Positions 8,601 to 11,600 of a stretch of DNA of 64,000 nucleotides are shown here, piece by piece. The position numbers and the translations under genes are program-made. Source of the stretch: Tubiluchus corallicola (lineage: Eukaryota > Priapulida > Priapulimorpha > Priapulimorphida > Tubiluchidae); the NCBI GenBank assembly GCA_030141605.1, contig JAQGDQ010000016.1, positions 605,499-669,498 on the forward strand, read 5' to 3'. Each line of letters starts with the position of its first letter. The first letter of the stretch is position 1. The notes beneath the pieces are model-generated. The model did no database searches. It saw nothing but the letters and a program-made list of their open reading frames with translations, and was not told the DNA's origin.

Positions 8601-11600
8601 ATAAAAGCAATAATTGTGCATCTTCATTAGCAGACAGATCCACTGCTGGCTTCTCTGCAGCACTCATAACAATAGAAATGGGTTGTTGTGGGGCACTTCT
8701 CCTCAGAAAAGTTTAAAAAACCAAATCGAACACTAAATCATCGAAATGACAAAACTAGCTGTTCTCACAGCGTACTCAAGTGTATTTCAACTTGGTTTCT
8801 CCCAACTCAGGTAGATAGGCATCAGCCCATTAATGACTCTAAACGTAACAACTTAGACTTAATAATATTCTAGAGCACTGTAATATGAATAACATCTCAC
8901 TTTCATGTTTCTGTATAAGCTGTCTTGTACGTTCTCTATAAGTACACATTTTGTCCCATTCTGCGATAAGTATACATAAACGCATGCTGTGCACTGCTAC
9001 GCTATGTTTCATTGCCATGTGTGTTTTGTAGGACAGGTAGCTGTTTTAACATAGACCTATGTATGCTTGATTTCATTGTCAATAAAGTAATCATAATTGT
9101 TTCACTTTTGATGAGCTTACCATAATAAACGCCATAAACAACAGCTGCTGCGGTGAGTGCTCCAAGATATTGGCTTAACCAGTAAAAGCACATTTTGTAC
9201 AGTGGAAGTCGCCCCAGGATGGCCATGGCTCCCGTTACGGCAGGATTGATATGTCCACCTTAAAAATCAGTCACTATGATCACAATTTTAAGCACTGCAA
9301 CAATTTATAGCAAACATAACTTGTGTATTGAGAACCCCCTTTTCCATTTAAGCTATATTGTGCTGATTTGTTTAAACTTGTGTTGCCCCCTCTTTTCTGT
9401 TATAAACTGGTTTCCTTTTAAACAGGTCATGTGACCAGACTTTTACCTGTACACTTACCTGTAGATTGGAGTAACTCAGGTGTTCACACACTGCAGTGAC
9501 AAATTGTTTAGCGTCAGTCATTGATTTGTTGTTATAATTTCATAATTACACTTATAGAAGATCACCATGTAAGTTGATTTCTTAATTTCTTAAATGTTAA
9601 ACTTTGTTTATTAAAAAGACTAGAGATTAGATTGTGTAATTTACCTAAAAGTTTGTTAAAGTTAATTAGATCAATTTAGTTTAGATTTCGCCGTAAAATT
9701 GAGTAAATTTATCTTATTTGTTTTCAGATTAAACGATACAAGCTACACAATTATGTTGTTGGAGTTTTTTTTATAAGAAGGTAGCACAGTTTAATATGAT
9801 TCTGGGTGTAATTGACATGGACGACAGCTATACCGTGTGTCCTTGAGCCAAGCTGGTATCTGGGGCAACACTGCAGAGCGGTTTAACTTCGAGCTATGCT
9901 ACGTGTTCTGGACTATACCTGATAGTATTATATTGACAATGAAGCCAGCGCTGCTGTACGATACTACAGGATTTTACATTACCAGCAAGTAGAAATATAT
10001 TTGGACTTTTAAAGCAAAATGACTGATCCTTCAAACCAAATTCAGTTGAGAAAACTTGAACTTAAAAATAAAAAGCAAGAAGAATTAAGAGATATCCTTC
10101 GTGAAAGAGGGTTGATAGTTCATGGTAATAAAGCTGAATTAGTCACGAGGATAATCGAAGATGAGCAGTCACGATTGCAAGCAGCAAGCACTCATGACAA
10201 GGAAGCCGGAGCTGATGCGGATGAAAAATCAGCAAAAGCAACTTCAGAGCGGAAAAGCAAGCATAGCGCAAAGGGAGCTGAGAGGGATTCTCAATTCGCA
10301 TCTTCCAAGACAGCTTCAAAGATGAGTGAGAGAAAGTTACGACTTCATGAACTGAAAATACAAGAGCAGGAATTAAAGCTGCAAGCAATGAAAATAAGGC
10401 ATGAACGTTTGCAGAGTGAATTCTCAGGTGAGCAGAAGTCGCAGGTAACTGGCATTGAACCAGCCAATTATGTGGCGCCACCTGTTGCCGAAAAATCGAC
10501 TAAACAAAAGGTCGCTGAGTGGTTGAAGCAATCTGAAGACGTATCTGCAGATTTGCAACAAATAAGTGGAAAGCTTGAAGGCTCCAATAGTACAAATAAA
10601 TACAAAACGGAAGCCTTCGTAACTCTTGCAACAAATGACAAGTATGCTTTAGGCGCTTTAGTTTTAGCAAGCAGCCTGCGTCGTGTTAGTACAGCTCGTT
10701 ACTTAACTGTCATGGTCACAAATAATATATCGCAAAATATGATGAGGCATCTTCGCGATAAATTTGACTATGTTCAACTAGTTGAAACAATAGATAGTAA
10801 TGATCCAGAAAACCTGTATGTATTAGGAAGACCTGAGCTGAATGTAACCTATACCAAATTACATTGTTGGCGCCTCACACAGTTTAGCAAGTGTATTTTC
10901 TTGGACGCCGATACGTTGGTCCTGCAAAACATTGATGAACTCTTCCAAAGAAAAGAGTTTTCAGCAGCACCTGACGTCGGATGGCCCGACTGTTTTAATA
11001 GCGGCGTGTTTGTGTTTCAGCCAAGTATTGACACGTTCAATCGACTTGTTTCGTTTGCGACGTCCACGGCTAGCACGTTTGACGGAGGTGACCAAGGAAT
11101 GCTAAACCAGTACTTTAGTAATTGGGCTACAGATTATGAAAAACATTTACCTTTCGTTTACAATACTGCAATGCAAGGGCAATATAGTTACCAAAACGCC
11201 ATCAAGAATTTCGGCGAGAATATCAAAGTTGCTCATTTTATAGGTGCACACAAGCCTTGGGATGATATCCATAATTCACGACACAGGTACGTGGCTCCTC
11301 CTATGGGCGACGCAAGGTATGAATCAAGAATATTCAGCGAGTGGTTTCATATTTACAATGCTGACGTTATGCCTATGTTACAGAAGCAACGTAAATGTAA
11401 TGAAGCGCGATATAATTTCCGTGATTTTAAAAACTTGCCCGCAGATGACTTAAATGTTTCAGCACCCACATTTGCCCCCGGGTTTCCAAGTAAAAGCGTG
11501 AGCCTTTGCTCAACCTCATACGTAGGCAAACATAAACAACTGCCAGCAACGTCGGCTATAGATGAACCTACTCGCTGATTGCAATGGATGGACCAGCCTC

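Follow-up and report, generated by a model that had tools for sequence, protein, structure and literature searches.

A glycogenin-type catalytic domain within the Gag of BEL/Pao retrotransposons of Tubiluchus corallicola

BEL/Pao LTR retrotransposons in the genome of Tubiluchus corallicola carry, within Gag, a GT8 domain of the glycogenin type whose active site and acceptor-region tyrosines are kept by selection at the protein level. Its position in Gag, its presence in several families, the selection acting on it and the recent movement of its carriers are the established part of this account. Based upon the sequences, it seems to us rather probable that a group of BEL/Pao elements captured the catalytic domain of a glycogenin into Gag and kept it, and that the domain dimerises Gag and glucosylates itself.

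The stretch of DNA analysed here (the window; 64,000 nt, C2:605499-669498) holds one such element at 9359–17168, all of its parts being read on the forward strand. Reading of the flanks revealed the target-site duplication TATAT on the left (9354–9358) and right (17169–17173). The 5' LTR (9359–9788) and 3' LTR (16739–17168), each of 430 bp and of the TG..CA type (TGTGCTG..AGCACA), differ at 7 of 430 sites, every difference being a transition. The sequence-only reading had described a SAP and GT8 bearing ORF inside a single BEL/Pao unit bounded by LTRs and target-site duplications, and this is what Pfam, the LTR pair and the TATAT repeats display. The ORF in question (ORF1, 10019–11578, 519 aa) is the 5' part of Gag, and is composed of a SAP domain (aa 15–48, 10061–10162; Pfam 3.9e-8), a coiled-coil-like Gag stretch (aa 100–136, 10316–10426) lying within a predicted long helix (87–135 or 85–138), a linker, the GT8 domain (aa 197–456, 10607–11386; Pfam Glyco_transf_8 1.2e-23) and a second linker.

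The remainder of Gag and the first part of Pol follow in the frame of ORF1 (11579–14716; ORFs and Pfam), and include DUF1759, the Gag core (11699–12124), and a Peptidase_A17 region of the Pao type (14339–14701; Pfam 4.5e-30). Beyond a break in the Pol reading frame (14702–14768) the rest of Pol extends from 14769 to 16655 with an integrase, represented by H2C2 (15540–15701) and a weak rve-like match (15858–15992), and with DUF5641 (16356–16631); the Pfam score for RVT_1 in this element is just 0.036. The purine-rich stretch adjoining the 3' LTR (16729–16738) is presumably the polypurine tract. The domain order gag-PR-RT-RH-IN and the Pao-type protease region in the Pfam results fit BEL/Pao. 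Members of this group with a SAP-bearing Gag share with the window element the LTR ends, the 5-bp duplication and the order of domains, as well as DUF1759, Peptidase_A17, DUF5641 and a linker motif LNP.A..[FW]. Unlike the window element, its BEL/Pao protein relatives have no PF01501 among their precomputed domains (best 120 of 1697).

The surroundings of the element include three host exons on the reverse strand, namely one that is aquaporin-like (MIP, under the Pfam cut-off; 6077–6451), one of a pentraxin (29521–30693), and one for the membrane region of a channel of the nicotinic-receptor type (32419–32883). In two tandem arrays separated by about 0.9 kb (23144–23268 and 24119–24258), the units, AAAAATGGCACAGG and a near reverse complement of it, face each other.

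ORF1 ends in a TGA (11576–11578) which lies in the Gag linker and is private to the window copy, this codon being a non-stop in all four of the other family-A copies that cover the position. The break in Pol near 14710 is likewise missing from L009 and L010, which alone were readable on both sides; in these, both parts of Pol form one frame. Since the divergence of the LTRs predicts about 2.1 stops across the 6576 coding bases of this copy, both lesions are compatible with its ordinary decay. Programmed readthrough and a true end of ORF1 were considered for the TGA and rejected, based upon the four non-stop codons and the roughly two stops expected. It had been proposed from the sequence that ORF1 is in the frame of Gag, which is correct, and that it forms a product with a boundary of its own, which had to be abandoned: the stop is accidental to the window copy and the GT8 domain is located in the Gag linker.

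The nearest class of this catalytic domain is glycogenin. Residues 197–456 of ORF1 match glycogenin-1 with 299 bits in a search of PDB sequences, and the domain shows 60% identity to Mya glycogenin. An AlphaFold model of ORF1 predicts a fold that matches the glycogenin-1 crystal structures 8cvz and 1ll3; since the confidence of the models is middling (pLDDT 68 for ORF1 and 72.5 for its N-terminal part alone), more weight was given to sequence. We compared fifteen sites with 118 glycogenins, these being the best 120 of 2967 matches less P0001 and P0050, which have duplicated stretches. In human numbering, mapped through the alignment with glycogenin-1 from PDB, the sites are T83, K86, D102, D104, D125, N133, D160, D163, Q164, N188, Y195, Y197, H212, G215 and K218, and the window GT8 is identical at all fifteen. 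The roles of these residues are those usual in glycogenin; for Tyr195, the role of attachment site is documented (PMC7046021).

In ORF1 numbering the alignment reveals the DXD motif (D296 and D298, 10904–10912), K280, D355, D358 and K412, all retained as stated in the sequence-only reading; the acceptor region, which it also gave as retained, is represented by the tyrosines Y389 and Y391 (11183–11191; human Y195 and Y197). The window GT8 differs from glycogenin at 4 of the 79 columns that are near-invariant and at 92 of the 177 variable columns; at the near-invariant ones its departures outnumber those of every one of the 118 glycogenins by which these columns were defined. The top glycogenin match, P0001, was considered as a fusion and rejected; it is a catfish glycogenin, annotated as such, in which a stretch is duplicated internally, probably as an artefact of the gene model. 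No SAP is listed among the precomputed domains of the glycogenin matches (best 120 of 2967).

The domain was initially described as a complete glycogenin. This is true of the catalytic part, but the C-terminal motif W..G..[DE]Y.G.D.[FY], which we take to be the glycogen-synthase-binding tail, is absent from the window ORF1. It is present in 99 of 120 glycogenin matches (best 120 of 2967) and in the host gene. The GT8 stretch of the window element is also intronless, as had been noted, against at least six exons in the host glycogenin gene. The element GT8 therefore resembles metazoan glycogenin (GYG1/GYG2, also GT8) in catalytic domain, predicted fold, catalytic residues and tyrosines, and differs from it in having no start of its own, no synthase-binding tail and no introns, and in being embedded in Gag.

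Judging from the motifs on both sides, the GT8 domain sits within a linker of Gag, in frame between the SAP/coiled-coil part and DUF1759. Pattern searches located the left border of the insert site at a KV..WL linker motif (10508–10525) and the right border at LNVSAPTF (11450–11473), which corresponds to LNP.A..[FW] in other BEL Gags. The flanks are considered to be Gag because of the SAP domain recognized by Pfam, these motifs, the equal arrangement in other families, and a clear match after the stop, where the first 45 residues match 23 of 120 BEL Gags, or 22 with composition correction (E ≤ 1e-3; best 120 of 1697). The part N-terminal of GT8 is weakly related to public BEL Gags, with 4 of 120 matching at E ≤ 1e-3, a number which falls to 0 of 120 once composition correction and masking are applied, while the tail of ORF1, from GT8 to the stop, shows a significant match to 0 of 120 (in each case the best 120 of 1697). 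That this tail might represent the C-terminus of glycogenin was rejected, as it has no matches to glycogenin tails (E ≤ 1e-3) and bears the Gag motif. Searches with residues 1–197 of ORF1 found no protein relatives, no relatives were found among viral contigs, and searches of NCBIfam and Rfam returned nothing informative.

Within the first 500 aa of public BEL proteins (best 120 of 1697) the pattern [KM]V..WL occurs in 6 of 120 and LN[PV].A..[FWY] in 29 of 120. Neither occurs in 120 glycogenins (best 120 of 2967), and the corresponding numbers among 20000 shuffles are 47 and 19. Under these strict patterns the six public BEL proteins showing the first motif all lack the second. A KV..W upstream of GT8 and an LN..A..[FY]-like stretch downstream of it are present in families A, B, C, F, G and H. 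The spacing of the pair was measured with looser patterns, defined after the sequences had been inspected: the two motif starts are separated by 314, 308 and 303 residues in families A, B and C, respectively, and by 20 and 15 residues in C2311 and C2314, which are GT8-less BEL families of the same genome. When the Gag ends of C2311 and C2314 were each shuffled 5000 times, a pair within 30 residues arose once for the former and never for the latter; among public BEL relatives (best 120 of 1697) 2 have such a pair. The spacing in C2311 and C2314 looks like an empty site. The GT8-less copies L063 (C2055), L064 (C2311) and L065 (C2314) have other Gag N-termini with no obvious SAP, and Gag N-terminal modules therefore seem to have been exchanged among the BEL families of Tubiluchus corallicola.

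The genome searched consists of 343.5 Mb in 2344 contigs. At the DNA level ORF1 revealed other family-A places on C970, C608 (split in two), C692 and C2085 with 85–95% identity, and many more matches, mostly of 65–68%. The latter were considered as possible host retrocopies, but those with flanks read are BEL elements. The places fetched are BEL elements, whole or decayed, in the order N-terminal Gag, GT8, Gag/Pol; L027 and L028, fetched for short N-terminal matches only, have no GT8. A glycogenin query gave at least 95 rows, exons of the host gene included, among which at least 25 are full-length (query start ≤ 8, end ≥ 259). Twenty-one of these 25 are stop-free, the exceptions being C533, C1689, C2308 and C1982, the last a very decayed further copy. 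Directly downstream of 24 of the 25 lies BEL Gag, and at the remaining one (C1210) the contig ends after 142 bases.

With GT8 protein identities of 46–62% between families, the sampled copies make at least seven families (A, B, C, D, F, G and H). A search for further BEL copies with the domain, as recommended in the sequence-only reading, has thus found them in the same family and in six more, at the same place in Gag. Among the five family-A copies only that in the window has an unbroken full-length GT8, those of C970, C692 and C2085 being frameshifted or truncated and that of C608 lacking an internal part. The GT8 of C1349 (family D) contains six stops, and in that of C1451 (family B) D160 is replaced by V. 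Scores and stop counts are equal at five family-C places (C1796, C2016, C2136, C2140 and C2209), and scores are likewise equal at C900, C1780 and C2321. Because of such identical scores these places may be segmental or assembly duplicates, and copy counts may be inflated. A GT8-less BEL copy, C496:7468-10002, was listed with an open frame of 2536 codons, against 1957 in its close relative C2055.

Open frames which span GT8 and the Gag-Pol match reach 2201 codons at C448, 2217 at C1810 and 2028 at C1887. The two LTRs of a copy differ by one site in 424 at C448 and one in 412 at C1810 (99.8% identical), by one in 239 at C1887 (partial), and by one site and one gap in 414 at C215; 5-bp target duplications were read from the flanks at C448, C1810 and C215. 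Since two copies combine a frame of more than 2,200 codons with LTRs that are 99.8% identical, GT8-carrying elements have moved recently.

Within families the pooled pN/pS of GT8 is 0.336 (six pairs; Nd 61.5 over 3501.5 sites, Sd 51.5 over 986.5 sites; binomial P 3.9e-8). The lowest value is 0.16 in B and the highest 0.64 in G, F and G being on the higher side (0.39–0.64). Between families A, B and C the pN of GT8 is 0.25–0.28, versus 0.32–0.34 for gag and 0.26–0.30 for pol; these ranges are without the decayed D copy C1349 (pN 0.30–0.36), and pS between families is saturated (0.76–0.82 for GT8). The comparison of element copies by dN/dS which had been proposed thus indicates purifying selection. 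GT8 is under such selection at the protein level, the target of which may be the fold alone (the dimer) or catalysis.

One might suppose that a processed glycogenin copy landed by chance in a single element, as could be suggested by the lack of an intron, the stop and frameshift of the window copy and the roughly two stops expected from the divergence of its LTRs. The many copies and families with GT8 at one site, their long open frames and the purifying selection on the domain render such an origin barely conceivable, and the further copies and families together with the open frames refute it. The sequence-only reading had itself contemplated this outcome, in the form of a domain in no other copy and junctions of a chance insertion, a combination which was not encountered.

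The host glycogenin gene, the comparison with which had also been proposed, is located on C2137, separate from the elements; it is interrupted by introns, and the last of its exons that were fetched encodes the synthase-binding motif. Two places beyond the elements studied, C2318:609-2567 and C1810:562720-563062, gave short glycogenin-like matches, which may represent a second gene, a pseudogene or fragments. In a tree of 41 rows (10 element GT8s and 31 glycogenins, the host's included) one branch (94/93) separates all element GT8s from the 31 glycogenins. Families A, B, C, D and F group together (100/96), and the GT8s of G and H join weakly (91/62). A grouping of the elements with the host gene has a p-AU of 0.30, and of the core families with the host gene 0.08. 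Neither grouping is rejected, and the host gene may or may not be the donor.

The RT tree was built from 53 rows, including 24 public BEL proteins, with no other LTR superfamilies among the rows. Here the core GT8 families cluster with support of 100/98, and within this cluster falls C1991, a decayed copy for which no GT8 match was listed. G and H adjoin the cluster, and the wider group (97/96) also has GT8-less elements of the C2055 type, H grouping with GT8-less elements. This absence of GT8 was read directly for C2055, C2311 and C2314, and for six other rows means no listed glycogenin match. A single RT clade of all GT8 carriers is rejected (p-AU 7e-35), and either one gain followed by loss or Gag swap, or several gains, must therefore be assumed.

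This distribution is explained most simply by a single capture at the base of the wider group, followed by loss through a Gag swap. Should glycogenin instead have been captured repeatedly and independently at one site of Gag, the scatter of GT8 carriers in the RT tree and the weak joining of the G and H domains (91/62) would be expected. Against this stand the equal borders in A, B, C, F, G and H and the union of element GT8s versus all glycogenins (94/93), while loss or swap would suit the C2055 line, which lacks GT8, falls within the RT group and has a different Gag N-terminus. We consider repeated capture quite unlikely, and proceed from a single one.

The course of events would be as follows. 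A BEL/Pao group would have taken an intronless glycogenin catalytic domain into the loose linker of Gag between SAP/coiled-coil and DUF1759, and retained it within a single SAP-CC-GT8-Gag-Pol polyprotein. The GT8 domain would pair Gag molecules as glycogenin pairs and, judging from the conserved residues, its active site would use UDP-glucose and add glucose as a short chain to the tyrosine loop of the domain itself. Particles would bear a covalent glucan on the N-terminal side of Gag, for which solubility, shielding, docking in glycogen-rich places and control of assembly are candidate roles. Because the synthase-binding tail is missing, glycogen synthase would presumably not be recruited in the usual manner; this weakens the option of glycogen tethering, raised in the sequence-only reading, which is the less likely function. 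For a self-glucosylating capsid in the full sense, in which every particle uses glycogenin to dimerise and extends glucose chains covalently from its own Gag, we would put the chances at about even.

Glycogenin is a dimer, and GT8 might be retained merely as a dimerising, folded spacer of Gag with its enzyme activity a relic. The end branches of the element GT8s, which are 0.43 to 1.64 changes per column (A, B, C, D and H) versus a median of 0.25, would be in keeping with a scaffold, as would the change of one DXD residue in family H. A scaffold need not, however, keep active-site residues, and in open copies from families only 46–62% identical these residues and both tyrosines are unchanged. 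Twelve open element GT8s, selected from the open copies, all keep K86, D104, D125, N133, D160, D163, Q164, N188, Y195, Y197, H212, G215 and K218, the only changes at the checked sites being T83S in B and G and D102E in H. We regard a scaffold alone as rather improbable. In the family H copy L042 (C461) the first D of DXD is replaced by E, with the other checked residues intact.

The same catalytic residues could be conserved in an enzyme directed at a host protein or metabolite, for which Gag would be only the means of delivery. By analogy, the EGT of baculoviruses acts on a hormone. Extra enzymes are known in LTR elements, and esterases in the gag-like place of some non-LTR elements (PMC5408684). 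Yet the acceptor-region tyrosines of glycogenin, expected for self-modification and unneeded in trans, are kept in 12 of 12 element GT8s, and a host target strikes us as decidedly unlikely. Self-modification of Gag is the reading retained here.

In the literature searched (titles and abstract openings; few subscription journals) no report of glycogenin in any retroelement was found, nor was a precedent for a self-glucosylating capsid seen there. Several systems are comparable in part. According to one account (PMC5408684), host sequence also occurs in LTR elements as an extra ORF, and the LTR elements of bdelloid rotifers with a GDSL or DEDDy ORF3 have, like the elements described here, an extra enzyme with intact invariant residues. 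They differ in that the ORF3 is separate, the enzymes are others, and they are located outside a BEL Gag. The CR1/ZfL2 elements of the same source (PMC5408684) possess a catalytically active esterase with a coiled coil in a gag-like place; these are non-LTR elements, and the enzyme is an esterase and not a sugar transferase.

Maize Bs1 is an LTR element with transduced segments of host genes, derived from three genes with none full-length (PMC7264820, PMC13317346), whereas the elements of Tubiluchus corallicola have one whole catalytic domain, selected across several families. Transduced host sequences in LTR retroelements are characterized by one or a few copies (PMC7264820), and the GT8 elements do not conform to this description.

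In Tubiluchus corallicola, then, an enzyme of carbon storage has been fused into Gag itself and retained long enough for at least seven families, some of them recently mobile. The linker of BEL Gag can accommodate a whole folded domain. Since a single genome contains the host gene, elements with and without the domain and what looks like an empty site, the benefit of an enzyme to a capsid becomes testable, and a link between glycogen metabolism and the particles of retroelements may exist.
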